Positions 3,720 to 63,167 of a stretch of 64,000 nt of DNA are shown piece after piece (position 1 is the first letter of the stretch; each line of letters begins with the position of its first letter). Under the pieces are notes generated by a model. That model worked only from the letters and a program-made list of their open reading frames with translations, had not been told where the DNA came from and ran no database searches. The stretch comes from Druceiella hillmani (taxonomy: Eukaryota; Arthropoda; Insecta; Lepidoptera; Hepialidae). The DNA lies in contig JAYKKI010000052.1 of assembly GCA_039881145.1 (NCBI GenBank), forward strand, positions 13,085,001 to 13,149,000, read 5' to 3'. Position numbers and translations under genes: made by a program.

Positions 3720-4267
3720 GGACCTCTTCTCTATTTACTGTATACCGCTGATATTCCCACTACAGAAAAAAGCCTTCATGCGCAGTTTTGCTGATGATAC
3801 GGTATATATCTTAGACTCCATCTGGATAGTAGGCTTAATTGGAAATATCATGTTAAAGTAAAAGCTGAGTAAATCAGGTTGAAGCAACGACAAATGTTGT
3901 GATTGGTTGGACATCATTCCAAACTTAACCTCTACTATAAGCGACTAATTTACCTTTCTATCATCAAACTGATTTGGATGTATGATATCCAGCTTTGGGG
4001 ATGTACCGAGCACTCAAATCGTAATGTAATCCAACGAAGCCAAAACAAGTTCTTGCGTATAATTATCAATGCATATAGCTATTTACCAATGAAGAAATTC
4101 ACGATGACTTAGAAAAAAAATGGATTAACGAAGTTATCCAAGAATATGCTATTAAATACGAAAAACGACTCCTCAACTATACCAACGTAGACGCTATTCG
4201 ACTTTTGGATATTACCTCTGAATTGAGAAGGTTAAAAAGTATTAAACCTCTTAAATTAACTTCATAA
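3720..4267 (+). pseudogene. Jockey-like non-LTR retrotransposon RT relic
   Basis: This is the C-terminal part of an ORF2 reverse transcriptase of jockey-clade type, badly broken. In order: GPLLYLLYTADIP at 3720-3758 (before the RT catalytic loop); the catalytic FADDTV at 3787 in another frame; a deletion where the rest of the thumb leader should be; LHLDSRLNWK at 3816, interrupted by stops at two codons; then LNLYYKRLIYLSIIK and PIWTYGIQLWG-like IWMYDIQLWG, and QRSQNKFLRIIINA. A further frameshift near 4085 leads to NEEIHDDLEKKW and a C-terminus ending RRLKSIKPLKL before a stop at 4265. The order of blocks matches the family. At least two frameshifts, internal stops and a deletion make it non-functional. 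Its 5' part is absent and the tandem array lies directly upstream, so it is a 5'-truncated copy. Confidence 0.85.
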
Positions 4268-46300: not shown

Positions 46301-47482
46301 CAATGTTATGAAATTAAGCAGAAGTTATATTAATTATCATTTTAAGAATTAGTTACATAACAAAAATTTACAATCAAAATCTGTACAATTAGACTTAAAT
46401 TTGTTGTTTACTAAATATTAATAAGAAATATAATTTTTTTTTAAATATTGTACGTTTTAAATGGGTCTATTTTCCCTACAAAAATGATAATTAGGTTATA
46501 AAATGTAAATAAAAAAAAACTACGTTAGAGACAAAATAAAACAATAAGTCTAGGAATTTTTTAAATAACGAACACAAAACTTAAAATAAAATTATTTATT
46601 TTGTCGGTCAATAAAAGGTTTTTCAAAAAAAAATTTACTTTCAAAAACATTTCTACTATATATATATATTTCTACCAACTTGATTTATTATGTTTCACAT
46701 TAACCACGTAACAGTAATTCTAAAAAAAAATTTTTTTAATTTTTGTTCTTCCGAACTTCGGTCAAAATTTATAGGAAAATATTCTTTACGATTTTCCCTA
46801 TAGGAATGTGTGCACATTTGAAAGATTTACGTAGATGTAGATACATCAAATTTTAGCCTGATATCGATATATACCTTGGAAAAACCGACTGTGACATAAG
46901 TCTCTCACAGACAAACGAAGCGAGTGAAATAAGGTTTTGGTTTAATTTTTTTAAAATAAGGACAAAGATATAAGACAGAAAAAGATATCAATATAAAATG
47001 TCATAAGTGATATTATAAATGTGAAAGTAAATACTTTGTCTCATTTTTACGCCTTACTCAATCTGTGTCTCAACAAATAAGTCTAGAAAATGTTATACAC
47101 ATATAGCCCGTATTACGGAAATCAAAGTAAGATCCTTATCTTGAAATATAATTTGTTTATTAAAAAAAAATACTCCATTAGAATGTAATTATCCATGTAT
47201 GTACAGCAAGTGGGTAATATACTACCTAGCCATTTCCAATGTTAGTCTTTAAAAAAAATTTCTCAATAATATTACTTTTAAATTACGCTCTCATTTTTTT
47301 CGCGAAAGCAAGTATGATAATATATAGAACTGCTTTTCATAAATTTATTTAAAATTTTGCAAAAAAATATAACATAAATCAATACCAAAATATACTTGAA
47401 AATTATATATTTTATACAAATTAAGCCAACTAAATAACTTTAAAATCCATTTTATAATGATTAAATGAAACCAATTTAAGTG
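43395..47482. other. A+T-rich DNA with one hairpin, no gene supported
   Basis: Frames at 43994-44341 and 45434-45694 (both minus) show no recognisable domain. A stretch at 46735-46960 (TTCCGAACTTCGGTC, then AGACAAACGAAGCGAGTGAAA near 46913) looks like decayed interspersed repeat, but I cannot name it. A perfect hairpin lies at 45159-45184. Confidence 0.45.
45159..45184. repeat. Perfect 10-bp hairpin with 6-nt loop
   Basis: AATGACTGTG and CACAGTCATT flank ATAGTC. Confidence 0.85.
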
Positions 47483-48275
47483 AAACGTTCATATTGCAAG
47501 TTATCTTTAAAGTCATTTTTATATTCATTCCTCTTTTTAAATGTTCATCTTTTATATTATAAAACTGACAAAATACGCTCCTCTACAAATTTTAAACTAT
47601 CAATTTCAATTTATAAATTTTAAAACTTGTAATAACCTTCTTTTGTATATATTTCTCCGGATTGATGACCAATCTCTGCATCATAAAAGAGGGCGAACAT
47701 TTGATTATGTGAACTTAAAATAGTCCATCTCGGCGGAGCATCCATCCAACTCCCATTGAAAATTGCTATTTCATCTATTACAAGTTTCAATGGGGTCCTT
47801 CTAGCAGGTGGCGTTGCGAGGCGTTTTAGCGGGTGGGCATGGTTACCTGGAGGAGTCAATACGATGGGCGGGCAGAGGTCGAAGTTCACGGACTGGCCGC
47901 CCCCGAGATAAGAGGGTCGATTGTCCGTCCTTACCAAAGCGGGCTGGTCTTTATTGGAGATCTTACAACTCATATGCTTGAAAAAAGTGAGTGTGAGTCC
48001 GAGAGTCAATGGGGACATTATGGGACTCGTGTCCGTCATGTAAATTAAAATTGATTTTGAAGACCGAGATGTGTCTGAAATAAATGACAGGAAAACGTAC
48101 ATTTTTCCTTAGTCACAGAAATAGTATAAAACCGTTATTTAACGATATTCTTTTCACAAATTATATAAAATATTTCGTTTAATGAGAAGTGTAAAAATAA
48201 TTTATATATATTGAGTTGTATCTTAAAAAATTAAATTTTATTAGATATCAATTGAGATTCCTGTTTAAGTCACAA
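47483..48275. repeat. Segmental duplication block A, 5' part
   Basis: This aligns colinearly with 58195-59084. Shared words in order include TCATATTGCAAGTTATCTT; CATCATAAAAGAGGGCGAAC against CATCATGAAAGGGACCGAAC; ATTACAAGTTTCA; GGTTACCTGG; TTCACGGACTGGC; TGAAAAAAGTGAGTGTGAG; and TATTAGAT followed by TTCCTGTTTAA against TAGTAGAT followed by TTCCTATTTAA. Divergence is considerable, with many substitutions and small indels. The core at 47700-48050 is much G+C-richer than the flanks. See the open frame listed separately. Confidence 0.8.
47620..48102 (-). CDS. Unrecognised 160-codon frame in a repeat
   Basis: This is the longest frame in the window. I recognise no domain. The middle (about residues 55-110) is rich in Pro and reads QSVNFDLCPPIVLTPPGNHA, then PLKRLATPPARRTPLKLVID. 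The diverged copy in block B keeps the same minus-strand frame over its best part (QSVNFNLRPPIMLTPPGNHD, then PPLERF) but is broken by stops on either side. The differences I compared by eye fall mainly at codon positions one and three in similar number, so there is no clear sign of selection. The start ATG is simply the first in frame. It may be a fragment of a transposon protein, a chance frame in a GC-rich repeat, or a lineage-specific gene. I favour a repeat-derived frame. Confidence 0.2.
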   Translation of the reverse strand: MYVFLSFISDTSRSSKSILIYMTDTSPIMSPLTLGLTLTFFKHMSCKISNKDQPALVRTDNRPSYLGGGQSVNFDLCPPIVLTPPGNHAHPLKRLATPPARRTPLKLVIDEIAIFNGSWMDAPPRWTILSSHNQMFALFYDAEIGHQSGEIYTKEGYYKF

Positions 48276-49480: not shown

Positions 49481-49668
49481 CGGATTTATTCATAAGTTAG
49501 TGTATAGTTTACAGAAATAAACAATCAATTATACCGGTAGCTTGCATGAATGGTAATGAACTCGTTAAGATTCTGATTAATTCTTAGTATTCATTTATAC
49601 TATAAATACATTTTAAGTTTAAGATTATAAAAGAATATCTATATTAATTAGAAACTGTTATTAAAATG

Positions 49669-50575
49669 TTAGGTTGACCACAAATAAACGCACTACGTTA
49701 ATTCATCAGTTAGCTCATTTGGAAACAGAATATTCCTACTTCCTCCTTAAAGTAAAAAGTTGTTTTTCTATTGCAGTATAAAGAGCATGGGACTGGGTCT
49801 GCAAGATAACGCTAATTTGACCTAGGGTTCAGGAGGTACCGCGTGGATGGACAACTTTTTGAAGAGATCAACATTTCATTCTTTGAATCTTTGGAACCAG
49901 TTCTTGACTGTATCGTTAAATAATATACCTTCACCCATTATAATGTAACAGTACACTAAACTGCTTTTGTAATTTTCCTAGTTTCTTTGTTCTTTACTCA
50001 CCGAAGTTCAGTTGCCTAATGAATAGAATATCGAACCCCGCGCTCTTAATATATTGTGTCAATGACGTCTGAGACCTTTGTATAACGTTCCCGTAATCTT
50101 TGTAAGTAGTGAGTTTTTATTAAGTTGCTAATATAATACTTTAGCGAGGACAAAATCCGTAATGAAAACTAAATATGGCAATAGATCGAACAAATTTGTA
50201 AATAAATATGACTAATGGGTGGAGAATCTGCTTAAATAAAGAGAGGGTGATCTCCAGAGCTCCTTAAGTGCTATTATGCCAGTAACCTCAACAATTAATA
50301 ATGGTAATTAAAATGATTAATGTCTGTTCTTGTAACAAAATTGATAAATATTGTATATGACAATGCGTTTATTCATTAAAATAAGTACTGTCATAAATGA
50401 TAAATATTATATGTGATAACATTTTTATTCAGTAAAGCACGTATAGTCATAATTACTTAAAATGTTTGTATGACATTGTAACGTCTAAAGCCTGGAATGT
50501 CATAATACAGTATTAATGTGGATGTTAGATTGTTTGATTTCGTTAGTTTAAATTTGCAAGTCGACAAAAGGTGTT
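49669..50575 (-). mobile_element. Mariner relic, copy in block A
   Basis: It starts TTAGGTTGACCACAAATAAA, like the terminal inverted repeat of irritans/mellifera-type mariners. It aligns over its length with 59789-60672. On the minus strand an N-terminal DNA-binding piece reads MGEGILFNDTVKNWFQRFKE (49879-49938), a stop, then NVDLFKK. This is the second helix-turn-helix of mariner transposase, followed by the place where RSGRP should be. Below it, a broken frame reads VKLALSCRPSP. The catalytic DDD region is absent, so this is an internally deleted, non-autonomous copy. The far (N-terminal) end of the element is uncertain. Confidence 0.6.
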
Positions 50576-50639
50576 AGGTTAAAAATTCAAATTGATGTAA
50601 AAATTACAATTATTTGAAAGTTACGGGCTCTATTGAACA

Positions 50640-51450: not shown

Positions 51451-51769
51451 TTAGAGAAATTTTAGGGGTGGCAAATAAGAAATCGAATTTGTTTTACTTT
51501 CCCCTTTGCGATAAAATTTTATGAAGATAGCTAATAAGATATTGTTAAAAATGTCCATGCCGCTCTTTTCATAAACAGTTTGACATAGACACTTGTAATT
51601 TAGTGTAGTGATGAAACATGTTAATTTATAAACATAGCATATATATTTCAAAATAAATAAACGACAGTTTGAAAGGAAATAAATATAGGTGAATCAATAG
51701 AAAATAATATTTTAATTTCCTTCTTGTTAAATTTAAAAAAATTGTTTGCTCATGCTCGCTTAAAATTTA
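51451..51769. other. A+T-rich DNA, nothing recognised
   Basis: No gene or clear repeat is seen. The minus-strand frame at 51451-51651 is not supported. Confidence 0.5.
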
Positions 51770-51890
51770 CTCGAAAAACAAAATACCGATTTAAAATCTC
51801 AAACTCGATAAGAAATTAAAGATATTTTACGTCTGTAAAAGATACGTTGGGCAATATATCATGATGTTTTTTGATTCATGAGATTGTTAA
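51770..51890 (-). repeat. Dispersed repeat, inverted copy of 60.75 kb
   Basis: Read on the minus strand, ATCTTTTACAGACGTAAAAT, then TTTGAGATT and GAGTAAATTTTA, align with 60745-60850 on the plus strand. A further piece of the same family lies at 62055-62095. Confidence 0.65.
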
Positions 51891-51892
51891 TA

Positions 51893-51935
51893 GCCCACCT
51901 TAAGATTTTGTAATATTCATATCTTCAGATGGCTT
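51893..51935. ncRNA. Inverted pair of partial hammerhead-like motifs
   Basis: On the plus strand GCCCACCTTAAGAT matches the first half of the motif at 51957 (GCCCACCTGAAGAT). On the minus strand AGCCATCTGAAGATA gives a second first-half core. The two are head to head and share the dyad. Neither can form a full ribozyme. They look like a truncated inverted junction of the element carrying the motif. Confidence 0.4.
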
Positions 51936-51956
51936 ATTAGCAAAGATTGCTAACAG

Positions 51957-52099
51957 CCCACCTGAAGATGTTGTAATACAACAAAACCTAGGTCGTGGTA
52001 AAGAACTTAAAGAAAGTGGAAATAATACTACATCACGTAGTTTAATTTAATTGCGAATAATGAACTTCTACAAAATTAACAACAAATGTATTAAATATA
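51957..52099 (+). ncRNA. Hammerhead-like ribozyme motif with shared tail (H1)
   Basis: Parts in order: stem I 5' strand CCAC (51958-51961); core CTGAAGA (51962-51968); one extra T; stem II GTTGT/ACAAC with loop AAT (51970-51982); AAAA where GAAA is expected (51983-51986); a CCTAGG stem III that is self-complementary and so suits a dimeric fold; T then C as the cleavage site (51993-51994); and GTGG (51995-51998), which pairs with CCAC. After the predicted cut is a tail (AAAGAACTTAAAGAAAGTGG and onwards to about 52099) shared with two other copies. The G12-to-A change should abolish cleavage. The family assignment rests on the ordered match, not on a fold calculation. Confidence 0.6.
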
Positions 52100-52635
52100 T
52101 TTACGTGGTTAAAAATAATTTTATTATTTGTTATTAGTTTAATACAAACATCTGGTACCTTAAAACGTTTACTTTTCGTCCTAAAACATTTATATTACGT
52201 CCTATACTTCTACAGAGCAAATTATATTCTAACAGATTTTATTTAATACAAAAACTTACTTGGAATGCAATATTTTATTCTTTTTTTCTGGAAATATTGG
52301 TAATATATATTATTACTTATTTTACGATTCCACGATAAATGCAGGTCTATAGTACCTTAAACAAATTTAATATTTTCCTACATATTCATTGAAACATCCA
52401 TATTTAGCACCTATTTGCAACATTGCACATACATAAGTCTAAAACTGTGGATACGGTAAGGCTATGCCAGAGGGATAAACATGAAGTTATGATAATGCCT
52501 TACTTCTCTTCGGAAGCTTAATAATAAAAAAATGTCTCAAACTGAATAGAAGCAACTTTTCTTGCAAACTACTCAAATTAAAATCACGGGGAAATTTTTT
52601 GCATATTTATTCAAAATGTTACTGAACTCTATCAA
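52100..52635. other. A+T-rich DNA, nothing recognised
   Basis: No gene or repeat was recognised after the end of the H1 tail. Confidence 0.5.
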
Positions 52636-53000
52636 AATTAACAAAATACGCCGTTTTTGCCAAGGGTTTGTTTCAAAGGGCGTCTCTCCCGAGACGCCCG
52701 CTTGGCGCTAAAAATAATCACACCACGTCCACGGTACGCCTTTACTCGATGGCTGTCTCGCGAGGGCTCGTTATTAAGCACTATATCGACCCTCGTGTAA
52801 ACATTAGCTCCAGGAAGAAGCAATAAGTTGGTCGGGCTGGCAGCATCAATTCGCTATTCGGTTTGAATGTGAGTGTCTTGGAATAGAGGCCTCGTCTGAG
52901 GCGGTAACTGTCGGTCTCTCTCAGGGCGCTTGTGTAAGTAATAGTAGGAGCTGTGTACATCGATACCGCGGACCGTATAAGAACCTGTGGAAGAGAGCCA
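52636..53000. other. GC-richer unique patch with perfect 9-bp hairpin
   Basis: This is a strong composition shift with many CpGs. GGGCGTCTC (52678-52686) and GAGACGCCC (52691-52699) flank TCCC. Two overlapping minus-strand frames cover it (52638-52823 and 52781-53116) but match no family. GCGGTAACTGTCGGTCTCTC (near 52900) and GATACCGCGGACCG (near 52961) have no partner in the window. Possible regulatory element or old exon. Confidence 0.3.
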
Positions 53001-53362
53001 TTATTGAATGGAACATGTTGTTTGGCGCAGATGTTATTTGAGGCAATAGCAATATTTGGTAAATTACTGTAACATTTAGGGAATACATTTATGCGAATCA
53101 TGCAATTTAAATGCATAGATCAATTTTTTTTAAGAAAGCGACATGCACAAAGCAAGCGGAATTCTTTACTTTGATTATAAGAAGATTCTTCTTTATTTTC
53201 AGCGTGCGTCTCACTCGGAAGAGGCTTTTACATAAACCGTAGTGTCTATTTAAGCATACATAATGATATAAACATAATAAACATAATATAGAACAGAGAT
53301 TGAATATATTTAGCGTTAGTCTTGTAGAAATTCATTATTACTATTCATATTATATTCGACAC

Positions 53363-53424
53363 TATCTTAGATATCTTTGCTAATAAGCAAATAACTAAGA
53401 TATCTTAGATATCTTTGCTAATAA
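53363..53424. repeat. 38-bp direct duplication before H2
   Basis: TATCTTAGATATCTTTGCTA occurs at 53363 and 53401, with a short dyad (AAGATATCTT) between. TTTGCTAATAACCCAC recalls TATTAGCAAAGATTGCTAAC before H1, so the leader of the motif also appears related. Confidence 0.75.
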
Positions 53425-53525
53425 CCCACATGAAAATGTTGTAATACAACGAAACGTGGGTCGTGGTAAAGAACTTAAAGAAAGTAGAAATAATACTACA
53501 TCACGTAGTTTCATTTAATTGTGGA
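53425..53525 (+). ncRNA. Hammerhead-like motif with shared tail (H2)
   Basis: It has CCAC (53426-53429), a core reading ATGAAAA instead of CTGAAGA (53430-53436), an intact stem II (GTTGT/ACAAC around AAT), GAAA (53451-53454), a changed stem III (CGTGGG), TC (53461-53462) and GTGG (53463-53466). The following tail (AAAGAACTTAAAGAAAGTAG, then ATAATACTACATCACGTAGT) is nearly identical to that after H1. The two core changes make it inactive. Confidence 0.5.
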
Positions 53526-53750
53526 TAGAACAGAGAATTGATGTAAGCAATTTTATTTTCTATCCAGACTCCGGAGCGCTTCACATCAGAACGTGGGGTG
53601 GTAACAGGCATCCTATTTAGGACAATGTGCCAAGACCGGGATCCGCTTGTAGAAGTTCTTAACCGAGAGGTCGGTGATTTTAAATTGTTTGTCCTGTCGT
53701 GGTTTAGCTACGAAATTAAGATTGCTGGCGCGAAATATACAGAAGTGTAT
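53526..53750. other. GC-richer unique patch
   Basis: Between 53565 and 53740 the sequence is G+C-richer (AGACTCCGGAGCGCTTCACA near 53567; CCAAGACCGGGATCCGC near 53630; CGAGAGGTCGGTG near 53663). No family is recognised and no frame stands out. Confidence 0.3.
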
Positions 53751-55584
53751 GAAGTTCAGTGGAAATTATTGTTTTAGGTATTCTTGAAAAAACCCACGGA
53801 AGTTACATGGAGATCACTTACTTACTTCAACATATTTTGTCCACACTTGTGCTTGGTAACGCCTCTAGCCTCAACAGTGTCAAATATAATATACACAGTT
53901 TATTAGCAAATCATAAAATTGAAAGAATAATAATTTGGGGCATAGTGTAATTAAGATTAAGCATTTGGAACATGTTTTTTCTATGAATAAAATAAATAAA
54001 CACCATAGTTTAAAATATGATTTTATGTCATAACTTAGACAGCACAAAAACTTTGACATCTACATAATAAAAAAAAAGTATAATAAAAAAATTATTTCTT
54101 CAAACCCACATATCACTTATTTTTTATTACTCTTCCGCAACAAAATTGGCGAAGCGGAACACTTGCTGGCTCATTTCGGCATTCGTTCGACATGTTAGAA
54201 AATATTTGACGTTGAAAGTTCAAATTTGGTATGGCTATAAGAAGTTGGAGCTCACCTAAGAATATGAAGTAAAAGTGTTTACATTTTAAATTTTTCGTTT
54301 ATTTAAGGGGTAAAGTGGATAGTTAAAAAAATATTTTAAGACCATCGTCTTGGGTATCAAATGACATACTTCTTAGTGCATATTCATAATTATTTTATCT
54401 AATTTTTTTCCTGTTAATCATTTGAACGATTTTCTCTCACTTGTCTCCGAAAATATCACTTACATTGAAAATAAAGTGTAAATTGAAACCCGTTTATGAG
54501 TTTTGAATTATTTCGAAATTTTGTTAATGAAGTTAAACAACAAATTTGGTTGTGTGGTTTAATACCATTTTTATACAAAGAGTACTTAACTATAGAACAA
54601 AGTTTAAATTATCAAAGGAAATACCTCATATCATTTTTTTTCTTTTTTGTTACGTAACGAGAATCAGTCTTATGAAAATATATGGAATCTGTGTTATGAA
54701 AAATATTGCATAACGCTCTTAATTGTATTGTTTCCTTGCTCTTGGGCAACAATAGTATTATGGATAGACGTTAACAAATTTTCTATTCTGTCTCTTTCGG
54801 ACAATAGTAGTTTGTCAGAAAGAAACAACCAGAAAAGTTATATTTTTATTATTATCGATTTGTATCTAGTCTTGTCTGTTTTTCTTTTAGCAAAGCATTC
54901 GGATGAGTTGAAAACTCAGAAAGTAAACAACTATTACAATTACCGACGTAAATGAAATAATGAATTAATATTTACATTTAACAAATATTTCAATTTAAAA
55001 TTTGTATTAGTTTTAATGAGGAATCCGCGAAATCCCTCAACGGCCGAGACGGACCTCAAAGAGAAACTTTACCATTGAGAGATTTTCTTTGTGATATCAG
55101 ATGGATGTTGCCGCTTAAAATATTTACGTTGAACAAAAATGTTCCTGTGCCGCATGAAAATGGCACAAAGTTTTTCGTTTCCGGGAGAATTTGTGGTGAT
55201 GGAAATTTTGTTTTGCGTTATATATTTTATATTTAACTGGAAAGTTTGTTGCCAATTACAAGGTTTGTATTATTAATTTTACTGTTATGGCTTTATAATG
55301 GGTTTTAGAATTCGCAGCTAACGTGTAACCCATATACAATAAAATTTCCAAACAAGAACATTTGGAAAGTCCACTAAGCACATATTAAATTTGATTTTAA
55401 AGAAGTTATTAACAGTGACCAATAAACAGTAAACTGGTTTCACTTGTTTCAACGATAATCAGTGACCAATAAATTGATATTCAGTCCATTAAACATTATC
55501 CCTTTACGCTAAATCTCTCCTCATATTTTTATTTACTATATGAAACAATACACTCTCTACTATTACAATAAAGTTAGTCGAAGT
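53751..55584. other. A+T-rich DNA, no gene supported
   Basis: A 102-codon plus frame (54647-54955) has a hydrophobic stretch, and a polypyrimidine-AG followed later by AAGTAA could mimic exon borders. There is no family match and nothing to splice to, so I leave it uncalled. Confidence 0.4.
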
Positions 55585-55895
55585 ATGTAGTGAAAACACC
55601 ATATTAATATTTAATCACTCTCATTGTATAACGAGAGAATCGGGTCTCATAACGCTTGTACATTTTCTCTTGAATTTTCATTGCTTTAAATTAACAAGAA
55701 GCAAAGTTTACTTTAAGATAATGTTACAAGTAGGTATGCTGAACAAATATGAAACGGAGAATTACTGTTTATATGTATTTCCTCAGCGTAAAATTGGAAT
55801 AATACCTCAACAGACTTACGCAATACACATAGAGGGGAAGTAATAACAAGAGACGTAAATTCATCTTTAATGAGTATGTGGAAATTTTAGATACT
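55585..55895 (+). repeat. Dispersed repeat, copy 1 of an inverted pair
   Basis: It aligns with the reverse complement of about 63168-63482. Shared words: ACACCATATTAAT, AATCACT, ATTGCTTTAAATTAAC, AGAAGCAAAGTTTACTTTAA, GAGACGTAAATTCATCT and AATGAGTATGTG. Identity is high for this window. No coding frame is present. Confidence 0.85.
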
Positions 55896-57129
55896 GATTT
55901 TATTACGAGATACGTAAATTTGCGCGAAAATCTTAATCATTTGGACCATGTGTATTCAATCTCCTTCCCTACAAAATAAATTAAATGATACGACAAGAAT
56001 ATTAGAATTGTGTATTCATTATTAATTAATTACATTTTGGTATACATCAAGTTATTTTAGTAGTATTTAAAGTTTTTAAGGAATAAAACATAAGTTAAGT
56101 AGATTTTTGTCATGTTTTAAATGTTACAATCTAAAGTAATCCGAATTATAATATAGACGGTCTATCGAATTTTTAAACCATGCTGTAATAATATAAAATG
56201 CCATAATTTAAAACTCTTGGCTAAAATGTATAGAAAATATATTCCAACACAATACTCAGCTCAATATTTAAAATTAATAGAGAGCGTGTCATACGATAAA
56301 ATTATATATAAGCAGTATCAACTAAATTATTGCATTTCAAGCTATAAGTTATCCAAAAATATGAAATTTATTTAATGCAAAAAAATAAAGTTATTGAATT
56401 TCAAATTAATAGTTTTACAAAGATTAAAACTCGTTGTTTTAATTCATAATTTCAGTTGAAAATTTAATCGTCTTAACCATTCCCCAAATGTATGTTGCCT
56501 TTTTTGCTTACAGATAAGAGTTAAAAGTTGAAATCTTTGACTCTTATCACAGCAATAAGGGTCAATATTTGAAGTCGAAGAGATTTATAGTACGATAGTT
56601 TTTTTCACTATGTATGAAAAACTTATACTTATATACTATACTTCACTTATACATGAAAAAATTCTATGATACCCATTTAGTAACAAGAAAAAATATCTTT
56701 TTTTCTAACTATATAATTATAGGTGCCCTCGATGTCAAGTAATGTCCCTGGCCTCCATGTCGTTAATGTAGTACCAATAAGTTTGTTTGTAACTTAATAA
56801 CGACGAATCACAACCAATTTTGATACACGTTTGTTTTGTCTAGTAAAGTAATGTGGAAACTATATATTATTTACGAATTTACTGGCATTGAACATTAAAA
56901 CACGAAGGGTGTATTTGGATAATTGTGAGTCAATCACGTCTAAACGGCACGACCGATTTCAATAAACCGTGATGACAGAGCTCACGATTAAAACTAATCT
57001 ATTGGTCACTTAACTTGACAAATAACGTCATTTCTGTGGAATGAAACTCGGAATTCTTGTTAAAAAGAATAACATATTAGTACTGCGATAGACAGTGCCG
57101 ATATTATAAATCAAGGATATAAAATTAAA
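55896..57129. other. A+T-rich DNA, nothing recognised
   Basis: No gene or repeat was recognised. Confidence 0.55.
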
Positions 57130-57205
57130 TTAATAGAAAATCTACGTGATCCGCCTTAATAGAAAATCTACGTGAATCCGCCTTAATAGAAAATCTACGT
57201 GAATC
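57130..57205. repeat. 26-27-bp tandem triplication
   Basis: TTAATAGAAAATCTACGTGA starts units at 57130, 57156 and 57183. The first two end TCCGCC, and the third runs into unique sequence. Near identity means a young expansion. Confidence 0.95.
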
Positions 57206-58194
57206 GTGACTCGAGCAAAAAGCATATCGCACATATTTTTAAGCTACGCCTCATCAGGAGTATTTCTAAATATGCATACGGACCAAAAATATTTTTTCTC
57301 TTTTTAATTGAGACTGCTTGAAATCGGCTTGTTTGAAGTATTATGTCGCGGTAATCGAAAAAATTGTTATTTCTCTTCACCCTAAGGTTTGAAATAGAGG
57401 TACACTTTTTGGTTTTCCAATGATTCCAGGACGCTTCATCGTTCCTTCAACAAACAAAACTTTAAAAAACATCACGACAGTTCATTTTTTAATTATGTTT
57501 TTATTTTTGGCGTCACTGATTTGTTAGTTTCGGAAATAGAAAATCACTTTCCATTTTAAAAAAAAATTTGAAAAAAATGTTCGCTAGCGCAAAAAAGAGC
57601 TTTCGTCCTCCCAAATCTCTCCCCCGAAATTAATAGGAAAATAATTTTTAAGTTTCCTCTAAAATATTTACGCAACTGAAAGCTTTATATCAAACAAAAA
57701 ATTGCAGTTTTTTACCGATATTTAACCTTAAAAAATTGGTTAAAAACAAAGTTATTAATGGAAAAACGAACTAACTATATAGAGTGTTCCATAAAGTTTG
57801 TGTTTAATTCCTTCTGAAGTACTTTCTGAAAGTGTTTTACATTAAAAAATTTTTTGGTAAATATAAAAGCGATAACTAAAAAAGCCCAGTCTGAACAAAT
57901 ATCTTCATGAATTTGCTTTACCGAGATACTTAAGTAGAGAAGGTTCAAATAATTAAAATAAAAAAATTCATGTTTTTAATACGAAGTAATTTTACATACC
58001 TGAGTCCTTTATCATGAAAATGATCCATAACAGTTTTATCCTGGAAGAAAATTATCAAAATATGCGTTAAGTTTAACATTTTAGATAAATTAATTTATTT
58101 TACATAATTTTAGATATATTTTATACCCACACAAAAAAAAACAGTCTAATTAAGCAGTAATTTTTGGTAATAAAAATAATTGTTATCATCGGTA
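57206..58194. other. Mixed A+T-rich DNA, possibly decayed repeat
   Basis: The segment 57540-57760 (TTCGCTAGCGCAAAAAAGAG, ACGCAACTGAAAGCTTTATA) reads like a decayed interspersed repeat and is faintly similar to 46735-46860. No gene is seen. Confidence 0.4.
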
Positions 58195-59084
58195 AAACGC
58201 TCATATTGCAAGTTATCTTGGAGATTATTTTTATATTTTTTCCCATTTCCAATGTTTACCTTCACGTATTACAAAATTATAATACAGCGTGATAGTGTTG
58301 ATTTTTTAAAATATTAATTTAAATTTACTTGAAATTAATTTAATAGTTTAAAAAAGTCTACTATAAACTTCTTTTGAATACGTTTTCCTCGATCGTGTGG
58401 TCGATCTATGCATCATGAAAGGGACCGAACATTCCATAACGTAAACTTAAAATACTCCATCTTGATAAAATATTAGTCCAAACCCCCATTGAAAGTCACT
58501 AGTTCATTTATTACAAGTTTCAGTGAAATTCCTCAAGCAGGTGATTGTGAAGCGTTCTAACGGTGGGTCGTGGTTACCTGGCGGCGTCAACATGATGGGA
58601 GGGCGGAGGTTGAAATTCACGGACTGGCTGCTCCGAGATAAGTGGGTAGATTGTTCGCCCTTACCAAGGCGGTTTTTATTGGAATATCTCACAGCTCACG
58701 TTACTTGAAAAAAGTGAGTGTGAGTTCGAGGGTAAATGGAGATATTATAGGACTTATATTTAGAATTTGAGTTAGAATTGGTTTTAGAAACCGTGATTGA
58801 TCTAAAATGAATATTACAAAAAACGAATATATCTTCCTTAATTATATAAATAGTGGGAATGTTACATTGGTAAATGAAAATATTTTTTCCACAAAATGGT
58901 TTTAAATTACTACGCTTAAAGAGGAGCGTGAAAATAATTGTTCCCCCGATTTGATATGATTTGGGTGGTTAATGGAGGGTTTGAAAATTTTGTTTGCCCC
59001 TGTGTGATATGTAGTGCATTATAGATTAACAAAAATTATTATGTTTTAGTAGATTTTAATTAATATTCCTATTTAATGCATTGT
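58195..59084. repeat. Segmental duplication block B, 5' part
   Basis: This is the diverged partner of 47483-48275, same strand, about 10.7 kb apart. In addition to the core, the stretch CCACAAAATGG, then GAGGAGCGTGAAAATAATT near 58890-58940, matches CACAAATTATA, then GAGAAGTGTAAAAATAATT near 48155-48203. The minus frame at 58504-58692 is the broken counterpart of the 160-codon frame in block A. Confidence 0.8.
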
Positions 59085-59788
59085 TATATGAAAAATGTTG
59101 TAAGTTTAAACCCAAACTCTAAAAAATATGATGTAGATATCAATGTTACTGGTATTATTATGAAAACCTGAAAATATAGATTGACACAAAATTCATCTAT
59201 TTTGTAGGTAATACACTTGATTCCGGTTGAAAGATAAAAAAATACTAGATACCATCAAACTCAAGGACAAGGAAAAACGCAAGTAGAGAAAGCCAAATGG
59301 TTTATGATCAGCTTTTCTCCTCGCGTTTTTTTTATTCTGTACAATACATCATGTAGGTGATACAAGTTAAATAAGAATATATATTTGGTAGTAAACATGT
59401 CACTGAAAGCCGTTTGAAGAAATCGAATTCGATTAGATCATTTAAAAGTCGGTTCAGGTCATTTGAACTGGGCCACGAGCATTGCAATTTTGTCGAAAAT
59501 TCGATGTTAAATATTTTAGATTGATACTTCGGTGATGGGGATAATTTGGTGATGTGAGATAATTTTATAAATAATATTTCTGATCCAGAAATATATATTC
59601 CATATAAAAGATCTAGAAAGTAGGTCTACTTAGGATATAAAGTGGATTTAGCAAACTCGGTATCAGCGGCCGTAAATAACGGTGAACTTGATTAGATTTT
59701 ATTGTCAGAATATTTGTATACTAAAATAAATCTTTAGTATAAAGTTACAGAATAATATTAATATCGATTAAATTTCTCTATAAGAATA
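59085..59788. other. Interval between the two shared parts of block B
   Basis: Mostly not alignable to block A, which carries extra repeats at the corresponding place. No gene is seen. TCGGTTCAGGTCATTTGAAC near 59451 is a short unexplained unique stretch. Confidence 0.4.
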
Positions 59789-60672
59789 TTAGTTTGGCAA
59801 CTAATAAACAGGTTTTCCCAATCCATCAGTCATCTCGTGTGGAAACAGAATATCCCTACTTCTTCCGTAAAGTAGGACGTTATTTTACTGCAGCAGTATA
59901 GAAGTATGGCAATAGATTTGTAAGATAATGCGAACTTAACTAAAGGTTGTGTTCCAATAAAGTCTTTTAACATTTCTAAATTTATTATAGGAAGTCCCTC
60001 TAGTTGAAGACAAGAGAAGAGATCAAAATTGTCTTCTTTGTACATTTTGAACAAATTTATAATTGCATCATAAGAGAGTACACATTCACCCATCGTCGCT
60101 GCGTCATAAGAAAGTACACCTTACTACTGAGAGTTGCTTTTTTCACCCTAAATGGAATTTATGAAACATGAGCACTATAAGTTCCCTTTGCAAAGTTGCC
60201 ATATTTTGTTTGTTCTTTTCTGTCCAATACTCAATTTTATAATAAAGAGGATATAGAACGCAGTGCTCTTAATATATTCTACGACGATTTTTGAGATATT
60301 TTTAGAAAATTAAAAAAATCGCTGTGATAAGCGTTGTGTTTATTTAATTGCTAAATGAATATTATCAAATAATATTTACGTTTTTATTCACAAGGATAAA
60401 ATCAGTTATGATAAATCATATACGGCAAAAAACAAACAAATTTCTATCTAAATACGACTAGATGGCCAGTCTTGTAAAAAATTGATAAATATTACATGCG
60501 GAAACATGTTTATTAATTAAAACACGTACCGTCATGAATATTTATCTGAAACCTTCCTATGACGTTATAACGTTCAAAGCCTGCAATGTCATAATGTTGT
60601 ATCTAATGCGGGTTATAGTAATTGATTGTTTCATAGTTTGATTCCGTTGGTTTAAATTTACAGTCAACAAAA
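59789..60672 (-). mobile_element. Mariner relic, copy in block B
   Basis: The left end TTAGTTTGGCAACTAATAAA is the counterpart of 49669 and resembles mariner terminal repeats. The whole block aligns with 49669-50575, including the non-coding stretch at 60330-60672 (TTGATAAATATTACATG, ACGTACCGTCATGA, ATGACGTTATAACGTTCAAA). Both copies lack the transposase catalytic core, so they descend from one internally deleted element or were duplicated as a unit. Confidence 0.6.
59830..60202 (-). pseudogene. Mariner transposase N-terminal relic
   Basis: Read from 60202 down, the frame opens with MATLQRELIVLMFHKFHLG and a stop at 60143, corresponding to the first helix-turn-helix region. After frame changes it resumes as MGECVLSYDAIINLFKMYKE (ATG at 60093), then DNFDLFSC. 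Mariner transposases have GEG-LSYDT--NWF-RFK-GDFDL-D-PRSGRP here. The RSGRP linker is changed to QLEGLP. The rest of the 87-residue frame (59830-60093), including LEMLKDFIG, keeps some N-terminal-like sequence. It ends with YFTEEVGIFCFHTR, which I cannot place securely. Catalytic residues are absent. This copy preserves the reading frame better than the one in block A. Confidence 0.55.
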
Positions 60673-60744
60673 AGCATCTGAATAAACATAGTATTTCTAT
60701 CAAACTAATTATAAAAATTCATATTATTTTTAAACACTTACATG

Positions 60745-60850
60745 TATTGCGTGATATATCTTTTACAGGCGTAAAAATGTTATGAATTCTTATAGACTTT
60801 GAGATTTAGAATCATTTCTGTAGTTTTGGCGTAAACTTTAGAACAATTTC
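60745..60850 (+). repeat. Dispersed repeat, partner of 51.8 kb
   Basis: ATCTTTTACAGGCGTAAAAA, then TTTGAGATTTAGAATC and GCGTAAACTTTA, match the minus strand of 51770-51890. Confidence 0.65.
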
Positions 60851-60911
60851 GAGTGAAGAGAAGTTTTAGCTGGCTTTAACCTTTAAAATTGTTATACAAT
60901 TATTTTGGAAT

Positions 60912-61034
<123 letters not shown>

Positions 61035-61264
61035 TATCGGTGCATATGCGTTATCGGTAAGCGAAATTAAAAGTTTTTATGTCAAACGGTTTCCAAAAAG
61101 AACGGCGTGGACGTTTGTGTCAATACGTCAAGAACCTTTATATTTACATAAAATTTTATTAATTCCCCTATGACTTTGTATAAATATCTTTGAATATAAA
61201 CTATTCAAATACATCCAGAACAGTATGCTTTGTTACTATGCCACATATTATTTTTTTTGAGAAA

Positions 61265-62010
61265 AGCAGGTATGACAGACACATAGGCAGACGGACGGAC
61301 TAACATTTGATAAATCTTCCAAGGGTTCCGTTTTTAGGGTTTCGTATCTCAAAGGCAATAAAAAACCCTTATAAGATTACCACGTTGTCCGTTTGTTGTT
61401 CGGCCAAGACCCTTTTTCTCAGGAACGCGTGGATGTACCAAGTTGAAATTAATATTAAATGCTTAGGGAGATTACGCAATCAAGAAAAATCCCTAAAAAT
61501 ATGGCCGTTTATGGCACATATTTTGACACTCGCAAATAAATCGAAACCTATAGGGTACTTTCCGTTGATCTAGAATCATGAAGTTTGGTAAGAAACAAGG
61601 TCTTACAGCACAAGTAAAGGAAAAAAACTTGAGAGGTGTCAAGGGACACCCGGATGGTACGAAGTTCCTTTCGATTAATTAGTCAAGGAATTGTAATAAA
61701 ATTTTATTTGTTTTAAGTTATAATAATAATTATTGTTATTATTTTTTATTATTTATTATGTACAAAAAACCTGTATACACTCAACAAAAATAATCGTCGC
61801 GACACCACACTGTTCAATGCGAAATAGAAAGACGAAACGAAAATAACTGGCTTGCTTTTTATGAGAGAGAGAGACAGACAGAGATACACGCGCACGCCGC
61901 ACGGCTTGCAGCGCGCCCGCTAGCAACTATAGCAAAAAGTGTCGTTACTTTTGGTCTTAATTTTTTCCGTCTAGCCCCCTTTCGCAACGATAAGGAACTT
62001 CGTTCCAAAA
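61265..62010 (+). mobile_element. Non-coding insect interspersed repeat, composite
   Basis: The order is CAGACACATAGGCAGACGG, AAGGGTTCCGTTTTTAGGGT, TATCTCAAAGGCAATAAAA, AACCCTTATAAGATTACCAC, TTTCTCAGGAACGCGTGGAT, GAATCATGAAGTTTGGTA and GGACACCCGG. From memory, this matches the style of very common moth repeat tails (a run of GACAGACGG, then GGGTTCCG). Towards the end ACGAAGTTCCTTTCG (61658) and its inverse CGATAAGGAACTTCGT (61988) form outward inverted ends about 350 bp apart, with a (GA)n run and a GC-rich stretch (near 61885-61922) between them. Frames here (61307-61573, 61859-62104) are not genes. Confidence 0.55.
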
Positions 62011-62054
62011 ATCCATAAATGGTTAATTTGTAGTTATATTGCATGTAATTTTTT

Positions 62055-62095
62055 TTAGATATGCGTCTCTGAAAGATATAGTAAGCAATATATTT
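62055..62095 (+). repeat. Short piece of the 51.8/60.75 kb family
   Basis: GATATGCGTCTCTGAAAGAT, then CAATATAT, aligns with 51830-51865 in the same direction. Confidence 0.45.
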
Positions 62096-62410
62096 TCGTT
62101 CCAAAAAATTAAAATTTCGTAAATAGTTTGATAGGAATATTATCTACCATTAAATATTTAGAAATGCCTGAATGTGTACGGAACTCCGGAATTTCACTCG
62201 TACCTGACAGGATTTATGGTTGGCTTTCTGTTCGCCGCATCTTTCGCGTGAATTTTCAATATTAAGATGGTGGAATTTGTCTTTAAGCTAGTGATATCAT
62301 CACAATATGCAAATTTACGAATAATTTTGTATCCCTAACGTTTAGCTGCTACGCTGTCTATTGAATGCACTAAATGTTATCATTGAACAAAAACGTCGAA
62401 TCCCTCTCTA
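62096..62410. other. Unique-looking DNA, nothing recognised
   Basis: The portion 62165-62290 is less A+T-rich (TTCTGTTCGCCGCATCTTTC near 62228). No gene or repeat was recognised. Confidence 0.45.
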
Positions 62411-62415
62411 CAGGA

Positions 62416-62456
62416 CCACGACCTAGGTTTCGTTGTATGACAACACCTTCAGGTGG
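62416..62456 (-). ncRNA. Hammerhead-like motif, minus strand (H3)
   Basis: On the minus strand: CCCAC, core CTGAAGG (CTGANGA expected, last base changed), an extra T, stem II GTTGT/ACAAC with loop CAT, GAAA, CCTAGG as stem III, TC cleavage site and GTGG pairing with CCAC. It is the best match in the window apart from the A9-to-G change. It faces away from H4, 40 bp downstream. Confidence 0.55.
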
Positions 62457-62496
62457 GCGATTGGTAAAGATAGATACAAAGATATAAAGATAGAAA

Positions 62497-62600
62497 CCTG
62501 AAGGCGTTGTCATATAACGAAATCTAGGTCGTGGTCAAGAATTTAAATACAGTAGAAATAATACTACATAGTTTTATTTAGTTGTGAATAAACATTAAGT
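62497..62600 (+). ncRNA. Hammerhead-like motif with shared tail (H4)
   Basis: It has CTGAAGG (62498-62504), an extra C, stem II GTTGT/ATAAC with loop CAT and one wobble, GAAA (62519-62522), TCTAGG as a slightly weakened stem III, TC (62529-62530) and GTGG (62531-62534). The stem I 5' strand is AAAC, so that stem is weak. The tail (CAGTAGAAATAATACTACAT, then TAGTTTTATTTAGTTGTGAA) is a decayed form of that after H1 and H2. H3 and H4 form an inverted pair. Confidence 0.5.
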
Positions 62601-63167
62601 GATAATGAGTGTCTACAAAATTAATGCCCAATATATTCAGTATATGGAGATTTAAAACTTTAATTTGAAAAATAAATTGGAATATTGAATTTTGATATAT
62701 TTTAAAGAACTCTTAAGTTGGAATGTATCAGCTACTTACAAATTATTTTGTCATTTGATATTTTGACTCTCGCTGTGTTCATTGCAGATATTAAGATGAA
62801 TAATGTGGAGGAATATATTTCTATATAGTTTAGCTATGAGTTTTTCAATTACGGTATTTATAAATACAATACAATAAAATATGTAATAGAATTAAAAAAC
62901 GTCGATAAATAATCTATATTAAAGTTCTGATTACGTTATATTTTTACATTGATAACTTTATAAGGAGCCTTTTAACATGCCTTTTGATCATAAAAATACA
63001 AAAATTAATAAAATTGCTTATACGTACGTATATTGAAACCAAATTAATTAACATTAAATACACAATTCCAAAATTCAATGAATTTTGTAGGGAAGGAGAT
63101 CAAATAAACGTGCTCCAAATGATTAAGGTTTTCGGGAAAATATACATATCTCGGAATACAACTAGAA
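62601..63167. other. A+T-rich DNA, nothing recognised
   Basis: CTACAAAATTAATGCCCAAT near 62613 still recalls the end of the H1 tail (CTACAAAATTAACAACAAAT). Nothing else is recognised. Confidence 0.5.

Follow-up and report, generated by a model that had tools for sequence, protein, structure and literature searches.

Decayed insertions of a high-copy, hammerhead-bearing repeat in Druceiella hillmani: probably a non-coding Penelope-like unit

The closest described systems are Penelope-like elements (PLEs) that carry an endonuclease, such as Pen of bdelloid rotifers (PMC3846280) and Poseidon PAc of the anole (PMC11167929). For the bdelloid elements it has been reported that the inverted pseudo-LTR (pLTR) is 37 bp shorter and overlaps the direct pLTR by 15 bp, and that in two families a palindrome of 18 or 38 bp lies at the 5' end of the pLTR; in A. 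vaga, one inverted pLTR bears a 31-bp tail and target-site duplications (TSDs) are 8-10 bp long or missing (PMC3846280). According to PMC11167929, a PLE protein acts on both strands, which it cuts and extends, and two internal start sites bound a tail of 30-40 bp; in the lizard element the starts are found at 111-118 from the ATG, with no difference between the two strands. In D. virilis the tail measures 30-40 nt (PMC11167929, PMC3846280). A PLE has also been described to contain a hammerhead whose C3 and G8 precede the start codon and which is cut 26 bp past the ATG (PMC11167929), an arrangement much like that of the repeat described here. Finally, minimal type I hammerheads are dispersed in animal genomes and occur in PLE pLTRs (Cervera and de la Pena 2014 and Lunse et al. 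2017, as cited in PMC7761336).

In the window (that is, the whole stretch of 64,000 nucleotides analysed here) a first-pass annotation had described four hammerhead-like motifs, H1 to H4, and one inverted partial pair. All four motifs are found where they had been placed, H3 being on the minus strand, and the core defects are as claimed: G12A in H1, C3A together with G8A in H2, and A9G in H3 and H4. Stem I of H4, which had been called weak, is broken, and all four motifs have an extra base preceding stem II. The tail that was said to be common to at least three of them lies behind H1, H2 and H4 and is absent behind H3. This confirms the observation that decayed copies of a hammerhead-bearing repeat are present in the window. 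The four motifs are parts of three insertions, all of one repeat, and these insertions are in all likelihood inert. When a model made from the four was run over the window, it did not detect another full copy (the next match has E 0.46).

The H1 arm (51947-52098, plus strand) covers positions 5-156 of the genome consensus described below, that is, the hammerhead and the complete tail to the outer end, and 142 of the 152 aligned bases are those of the consensus; the hammerhead motif, from stem I to stem I, is at 51958-51998. At the join with the inverted arm we read the palindrome TTAGCAAAGATTGCTAA (51937-51953). The inverted partial pair upstream of H1 consists of a direct fragment at 51884-51915 (consensus 5-36) and an inverted fragment at 51897-51947 (consensus 1-51), as given by local alignment to the consensus and by weak profile matches (E 0.005 and 0.05); the whole stretch 51884-51947 is probably the remnant of the partner arm. 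A wide search gave a poor candidate for the TSD of this insertion, 13 bp with one mismatch.

The H2 insertion is bounded by a perfect 12-bp TSD, ATAGAACAGAGA, with its left copy at 53288-53299 and its right copy at 53525-53536 (12 of 12 bp), and this sequence occurs just twice in the window. Next to the left copy lies the tail end of the partner (long) arm at 53300-53345 on the minus strand (consensus ~107-154, 43 of 47 bases matching, profile E 1.6e-6); the hammerhead of this arm is missing. The H2 arm itself (53411-53524, plus strand, motif at 53426-53466) is the short arm, which runs from consensus 1 to ~113, matches the consensus at 111 of 117 bases over 53411-53527, is without the last ~42 nt and stops at the TSD. 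H3 and H4 are arranged head to head. The H3 arm (62415-62471, minus strand, motif at 62416-62456) corresponds to consensus 1-57 with 52 of 57 bases matching, and alignment to the consensus finds the hammerhead alone and no tail. The H4 arm (62494-62643, plus strand, motif at 62494-62534) is aligned from 62496 as consensus 18-156, with 118 of 134 aligned bases matching; its TSD candidate, 10 bp with one mismatch, is poorer than that of H1.

A first look at the animal's own genome gave 933 candidates. Of these, 40 were scored, picked by their likeness to H1; one is H1 of the window, and the other 39 show a match of 88-94%. We fetched all 39 loci. The consensus of these copies has every core base, plus one extra U before stem II, and it is complete although the search query H1 itself bears G12A. 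The proposal that each copy decayed in its own way from an ancestor with an intact core is thus supported. A blind 120-kb sample suggests a genome copy number of about 100,000 (35,000-250,000), so the repeat is apparently very common in this genome.

The extra base had been called atypical. It is indeed found in all four copies of the window; on the other hand, it is no defect of these copies but belongs to the genome consensus, and also to 21 distinct, well-formed hammerheads from viral contigs. The latter come from a search with a loose pattern that gave at least 241 matches; among the matches listed, 23 have both stems of at least 4 bp, and the 21 that we used (stem I at least 4 bp, stem II at least 5 bp) are all from viral contigs. 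The exact core was not found in viral contigs. When viral contigs and bacterial genomes were searched for minimal-stem forms, none of 38 matches had a stem of at least 4 bp, and the form with a 4-nt loop gave 2 of 15, both weak, one of them L277 with a 3-bp stem I and a 5-bp stem II. An added core base, in this case an A, is also described for the plus-strand hammerhead of chrysanthemum chlorotic mottle viroid (PMC3705267). What the repeat has in common with the viroid and the 21 viral-contig hammerheads is one added nucleotide in an otherwise standard core; we do not claim descent, and the viral-contig hammerheads have longer stems and other settings.

Whether the motif can be called a hammerhead was judged with a type I descriptor, in which the stems have at least 4, 4 and 2 bp and the core may contain one inserted base or none. 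If one core mismatch is allowed, the descriptor has two matches in the window, H1 and H3 (one mismatch each), while in 1081 dinucleotide-shuffled windows it gave 54 one-mismatch matches and a single match with none. The genome consensus, with one extra U allowed, has zero core mismatches; it shows the type I core and three stems with stem I open, and H1-H3 carry 1-2 changes in that core. The two mismatches of H2 are at chance level taken alone, as 40 shuffles contain 29 matches with up to two mismatches. A covariance model trained outside the window and run over the 64 kb ranked H1 and H3 first and second (E 0.00036 and 0.0069); H2 came third at background level (E 0.43; 11.4 bits, the same as the next, background match) and H4 was absent from the 15 matches. 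This test is partly circular, because the sequences used for training had been collected with a pattern that was itself derived from this motif.

The Rfam hammerhead models are silent: at the gathering threshold there is no hit over the window, and at E<=10 there is none over 51700-62900, around H1 or around H3/H4, as the low-threshold matches fall on the TA tract and on the H3/H4 inverted pair or are weak and due to chance. This could mean that an AT-rich repeat resembles a hammerhead by chance, a reading with which a core free of selection and a non-hammerhead fold of the single copy (see below) would also agree. However, Rfam is a weak criterion here, since its models also miss clear-cut control hammerheads with the extra U (12 loci at gathering, one at E<=10). 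The zero-mismatch consensus core (one such match in the 1081 shuffled windows) and the exact fold as a double hammerhead (2 of 300 controls) make a chance likeness highly improbable.

The fold in question is that of the dimeric form. Two direct consensus copies give an exact double hammerhead as the minimum-energy structure (26 of 26 pairs, -23.0 kcal/mol), and two copies of H1 also fold into one with 26 of 26 pairs; dimers of H2, H3 and H4 give no such fold. Among gap-free arms, the two-copy fold is obtained for 24 of 37 long ones and 13 of 27 short ones, as compared with the 2 of 300 controls mentioned above. For the single consensus copy the minimum is a non-hammerhead structure (-7.2 vs -3.8 kcal/mol), and none of the four monomers H1-H4 has a hammerhead minimum. 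The bond predicted for self-cleavage of a type I hammerhead would be the one after C17. Consensus and folding thus support the idea of a repeat family of the Penelope-associated, minimal-hammerhead kind that is best folded as a dimer; as a whole, the first-pass interpretation is partly supported. We see no sign of selection after insertion: the core is not better conserved than the rest (0.041 vs 0.032 differences per site in long arms, 0.080 vs 0.060 in partner arms).

Like the dispersed minimal type I hammerheads, the repeat has a short stem III, a supposed action as a dimer and many non-coding copies, and it is set apart from them, going by the description in PMC7761336 alone, by the extra U before stem II. 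With metazoan retrozymes it shares the type I hammerhead and the nature of a short, AT-rich, non-autonomous retroelement (PMC7229834). The first-pass annotation had named retrozyme-type repeats among the known carriers of such hammerheads. A retrozyme would be a small tandem repeat amplified via circular RNAs that are cut by its own hammerheads, and the weak stem III, together with the view that retrozymes depend on PLEs (PMC7229834, PMC7761336), would suit it. The loci do not bear this out. Two long, direct, neighbouring arms are found in L307 only, one of 39 loci (L308 has an additional 27-base direct fragment); the copies form inverted pairs instead of the tandem direct repeats described in PMC7229834. 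Moreover, they start before the cut site and contain it, and so are not cut-to-cut monomers. We consider a retrozyme very unlikely.

Instead, at 37 of the 39 loci (35 of 39 by profile) the arms lie on both strands, head to head. A clear TSD, with a score of at least 9, is present at 24 of the 37 two-armed loci, compared with 1.6% of chimeric-flank controls, and a score of at least 11 at 21 of 37 compared with 0 of 555 controls; the other 13 two-armed loci are without a clear duplication. The most frequent length is 12 bp (13 of 24), with a range of 9-17. Where the duplication is clear, the short (left) arm ends at consensus 108-115 in all 24 loci. The long (right) arm ends at 151-156 in 19 of 24; for the other five, a crude match of 22 bases puts the end at 93-148. 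About 42 nt separate the two outer ends, and the tail is on one arm only. Our first arm-end estimates had given a variable short arm (44-157), which the duplications showed to be largely an effect of alignment.

Near-identical inverted arms, a fixed unit and a high copy number could also be expected from a MITE, that is, a DNA transposon of the cut-and-paste type bounded by terminal inverted repeats, and in this case the hammerhead likeness would be incidental. However, the two outer ends do not mirror each other, one being at ~112 and the other ~42 nt further out, the TSD varies around 12 bp with no fixed length, and the arms fit the pLTR plan and ribozyme placement of PLEs. There is little to recommend a MITE in view of this.

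Much the best explanation, in our opinion, is that the copies are decayed insertions of a non-coding, high-copy PLE unit, in which inverted and direct pLTR copies with a minimal type I hammerhead are joined at a 5'-end palindrome. As far as Pen and Poseidon PAc are described in PMC3846280 and PMC11167929, the repeat shares with them a shorter inverted pLTR placed head to head at the 5' palindrome, a short TSD and a tail on one arm. Both have a minimal hammerhead with the cut, predicted in the case of the repeat, 26-27 nt after an ATG (PMC11167929), and the two reverse-transcription starts of the PLEs, 30-40 nt apart, have their counterpart in two putative starts of the repeat, ~42 nt apart as judged by its ends. 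There are also differences. The tail of ~42 nt is slightly longer than those of A. vaga and D. virilis, and the 12-bp TSD is longer than that of A. vaga (PMC3846280). The ends are at +87 and +130 from the ATG, near but not equal to the starts in the anole PAc, and both sites seem to be used per insertion, one per arm, whereas in the lizard element the strands are alike in their start sites (PMC11167929).

Furthermore, unlike the PLEs, the repeat has no reading frame, and the repeated unit, estimated at 100,000 copies, is the inverted pair alone. After the ATG of the consensus come TTG and TAA, and a PLE protein thus cannot be started there by this unit. The single frame of a PLE, with reverse transcriptase and GIY-YIG endonuclease, for which we looked in 30 of the 299 open pieces of the window, was not found: neither reverse transcriptase nor GIY-YIG is above the Pfam cut-off. 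No homologues were found for a piece at 3903, and two frames of 132-133 aa, taken from nine fetched loci, gave nothing above the Pfam cut-offs. Among the titles and abstract openings searched, which leave most subscription papers outside, we found no description of a Penelope unit that is an inverted pLTR pair alone.

A possible cycle can be proposed. A PLE protein, supplied in trans, would cut both target strands ~12 nt apart and prime reverse transcription at two sites of the RNA, consensus ~155 and ~112. Both cDNAs would be extended as far as the palindrome at the 5' end of this RNA and would there anneal or be joined by their ends, giving the product TSD-[112 to 1 inverted]-[1 to 155]-TSD of ~267 bp. 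The transcript of one inverted unit is predicted to form a hairpin of ~110 bp, in which the ribozyme would be locked; it may be active only in transcripts with two direct copies, as a double hammerhead.

Tentatively, we suggest that each insertion is a single reaction in which two reverse transcriptases, one primed per cut strand, work on the same RNA ~42 nt apart (112 and 155), and in which the palindromic RNA 5' end serves the annealing of cDNAs of equal sense. The pairing of 112 with 155 and variants shared between arms are both predicted by this reading. A usable partner arm is present in 31 loci; in these, the two arms of one locus have 29 non-consensus states in common, while 500 re-pairings gave a mean of 11.1 and a maximum of 20. 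The palindrome half TTAGCAAAG is found within 60 bases of the head of the long arm in 28 of 39 copies, and 11 of 39 have no exact half near the join.

On the other hand, a fixed palindromic RNA, as of a SINE-like master, could serve as template over its full length, from a 3' end at 155 to a 5' end at the complement of 112, with no second priming. The precision of both outer ends where a duplication shows them, and the presence of two arms and of almost the full length in most copies, are in line with this. However, the join of the partner arm differs among copies (in L295, L296, L309, L314 and L316 it passes abruptly to the palindrome from a more internal position, and L317 and L323 are joined without the inverted palindrome), although later deletions could account for it. 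There are no arm-specific consensus differences over positions 5-110, and the RNA of such a master would itself be the ~110-bp hairpin. We regard this explanation as doubtful.

The arms could also arise by self-priming, as proposed for the Penelope elements of rotifers (PMC3846280): a single cDNA, or an antisense RNA, would fold back at the palindrome and serve as its own template for the second arm. The palindrome at the join, the head-to-head arms and the variants shared within a locus speak for this, but the fixed end at 112 requires a separate cause. At L339:3000-3340, moreover, the long arm starts at consensus 22 and the short arm reaches consensus 2; positions 2-21 could not be copied from a cDNA that ran from 155 to 22, nor could 113-155 be copied from a cDNA started at 112. 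While this is one locus, which a later deletion could mimic, we think self-priming unlikely.

Ribozymes of this kind are already known; the repeat is useful as evidence on the insertion of PLEs. In PMC11167929 and PMC3846280 the second-strand synthesis of PLEs and the cause of inverted pLTRs are left open. Perhaps 100,000 short insertions, with two fixed ends and clean duplications, make the repeat a large natural record of the PLE insertion reaction, in which a single copy can display the target, the join and the two starts. If the reading with two reverse transcriptases is true, it would account together for the fact that the pLTRs stand head to head, that only one arm has a tail and that a palindrome lies at the join; it would also supply the missing second-strand step of Penelope transposition.

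The four hammerhead-like motifs, H1 (51957), H2 (53425), H3 (62416, minus strand) and H4 (62497), are pieces of three insertions. Reading and alignment placed them at the positions given in the first-pass annotation, with the core changes named there, and all four carry the additional base between A9 and stem II that it had described. With a type I hammerhead descriptor, H1 and H3 have one core mismatch each and H2 has two. On 1081 dinucleotide shuffles of the window, the same descriptor found 54 one-mismatch sites and 1 mismatch-free site, and when up to two mismatches were allowed, 29 sites turned up in a smaller run of 40 shuffles. Given these match rates, one worn hammerhead site is weak evidence; strong evidence comes from homologous copies with a mismatch-free consensus.

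We searched the species' own genome (2,586,002,920 bases in 181 contigs) with H1 and obtained 933 first-look candidates. The best 40 of the 933, which were scored, comprise the copy in the window itself plus 39 further copies with 88-94% identity; the consensus and the locus counts rest on these 39 fetched copies, chosen by their likeness to H1. The consensus includes CCAC CUGAAGA U GUUGU AAU ACAAC GAAA CCUAGG UC GUGG. It has G12 despite the A in the query, which bears out the earlier suggestion that the ancestral core was intact. In what follows, an arm is one direct or inverted repeat copy, numbered by consensus positions 1-156. An A at position 12 occurs in 7 of the 39 long arms, a number that selection by H1 likeness may have enriched. 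Of the 39 long arms, 23 have an intact core, as do 15 of 31 comparable partner arms. To estimate the copy number, we took twelve 10-kb stretches with positions fixed beforehand; they contain five insertions, one of them truncated by the stretch end, and their reversed sequence contains none. By our own arithmetic, this density of about 42 per Mb corresponds to about 1.1 × 10^5 copies genome-wide (Poisson range roughly 3.5 × 10^4 to 2.5 × 10^5).

Head-to-head inverted arm pairs are found in 37 of the 39 loci (35 with a stricter profile; L300 and L309 have poorly matching partner arms). We looked for target-site duplications (TSDs) using a tolerant left boundary, with joined flanks of different loci as controls. 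Scores of at least 9 were seen in 24 of 37 loci and in 1.6% of controls, scores of at least 11 in 21 of 37 loci and in none of 555 controls. The TSDs of the 24 loci are 86% A+T and mostly 12 bp long (13 of 24, range 9-17). They place the end of the short arm at consensus 108-115 in all 24 loci and that of the long arm at 151-156 in 19; the remaining five long-arm ends, at 93-148, were positioned by a crude 22-base match. From the arm ends set by the TSDs, the unit is therefore TSD-[112 to 1]-[1 to 155]-TSD. The H2 insertion follows this plan: its two TSD copies (53288-53299 and 53525-53536) are 12 bp long and identical, and its long arm, on the minus strand, no longer has its hammerhead. H1 and H4 are long arms; H3 is a remnant of a partner arm, as are the pieces lying upstream of H1. 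No convincing TSD was found for the H1 and H4 insertions.

The region also contains other repeats. Long diverged repeats (about 65-70% alike) connect its two halves, pairing 47364-48202 with 58075-58939, 49557-50615 with 59683-60729 and, inverted, 55036-56417 with 64000-62653, a pattern that would fit an old segment having been copied both directly and in inverted order. A separate repeat of about 100 bp (51782-51876; 60722-60821, minus strand; 62045-62112; common part GCGTCTGTAAAAGATAT..GCAATATAT) adjoins the H1 insertion once and lies outside the Penelope-type unit. At relaxed Rfam thresholds, the long TA tract at 60900-61050 gave false microRNA matches. Open pieces at 3903-4264 resemble, in our tentative reading, the final part of a jockey-type reverse transcriptase, a likeness without database support in the searches made with these pieces.

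A covariance model trained on 21 viral-contig hammerheads and run over the window ranked H1, H3 and H2 first to third, with H2 scoring at background level, and did not recover H4. The core letters of this model are not independent, since the training hammerheads were picked with a pattern drawn from a window motif; their stems are independent of that pattern. All 21 have long stems and the additional U ahead of stem II (for example L014:9405-9459, L075:7946-8000, L075:8393-8447 and L105:3401-3455, with 17 further sequences). In several of them loop II seems, by eye, complementary to the bases right after stem I (for example UUGC/AGCA and GGUU/AACC), and L105 additionally contains two type P5 twister ribozymes. 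Rfam reported no hammerhead across the window at gathering thresholds and none at E ≤ 10 in the window stretches tried. As a control we took 12 loci from this viral-contig set, whose hammerheads share the extra U and have a complete set of core bases, a stem I of 5-6 bp and a stem II of 7-9 bp. None of the 12 was reported at gathering thresholds, and the hammerhead of a single control locus scanned alone at E ≤ 10 was likewise missed, so the Rfam negative has little weight.

The first-pass annotation had pointed to hammerheads that act as dimers, and the predicted folds agree. A single consensus copy favours another fold (-7.2 kcal/mol, the hammerhead being at -3.8). For two copies, an exact double hammerhead is predicted (-23.0 kcal/mol, 26 of 26 pairs). 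The same two-copy fold is obtained for 24 of 37 gap-free long arms, 13 of 27 gap-free short arms and H1, for 2 of 300 controls in which stems II and III were kept, and for none of H2, H3 and H4. The predicted structure of a lone inverted unit is a hairpin about 110 bp long (-190.8 kcal/mol), and a lone insertion should therefore not cut itself. One locus of the 39, L307 (786-1035), has two long direct arms adjacent, the layout needed for a double hammerhead to form within one RNA. Slower change at core sites after insertion was not seen in long arms (0.041 per site versus 0.032 elsewhere) or short arms (0.080 versus 0.060). Stems I and II are slightly lower in the long arms (0.022 and 0.023), without such lowering in the short arms (0.103 and 0.064). 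We take this pattern as neutral decay.

How are the two arms joined? The arm head bears the palindrome TTAGCAAAGA.TCTTTGCTAA, and its inverted half TTAGCAAAG occurs in exact form at most 60 bases from the long-arm head in 28 of 39 loci. In most loci the partner arm extends to the palindrome; in L295, L296, L309, L314 and L316 it jumps there from further inside (in L316 to a mutated form), and in L317 and L323 the arms are joined without the inverted half. Across the 31 loci whose partner arm could be used, arms of the same locus have 29 non-consensus states in common; when the arms were re-paired 500 times, the mean was 11.1 and the highest count 20. At consensus position 64 the arms agree in 26 of the 31. 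Over positions 5-110, neither arm has a specific consensus of its own.

In the sections of PMC3846280 drawn on here, a palindrome of 18 or 38 bp is described at the 5' end of the pseudo-LTR (pLTR) of two bdelloid Penelope families. A 31-bp tail is borne by just one inverted pLTR, and TSDs, where present, are 8-10 bp long; the authors propose self-priming on an antisense template. Plain self-priming seems to us unlikely here; one locus (L339:3000-3340) argues against it, its long arm starting at consensus 22 while the short arm reaches consensus 2, a pattern that later deletion could also produce. For an anole element, the corresponding parts of PMC11167929 describe a protein that cuts and extends both strands, with two RNA-internal start sites that flank a 30-40 bp tail and do not differ between strands. 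Its hammerhead C3 and G8 lie upstream of the start codon and the cut 26 bp downstream; in our consensus, with an ATG at 26-28, the predicted cut after 52 is 27 nt from the A of the ATG. The anole ribozyme cleaved only with the protein present, and insertion still occurred with ribozyme mutants (PMC11167929). A bolder reading, in which two enzymes would act on one RNA and their cDNAs would be joined via the palindrome, is consistent with the pairing of ends at 112 and 155 and with the variants shared by the arms, and we regard it tentatively as a possibility well short of an even chance. The Penelope enzyme was not seen in the window pieces searched. Our best reading is that the repeat is a non-coding unit belonging to a Penelope-like element, with the enzyme encoded elsewhere.
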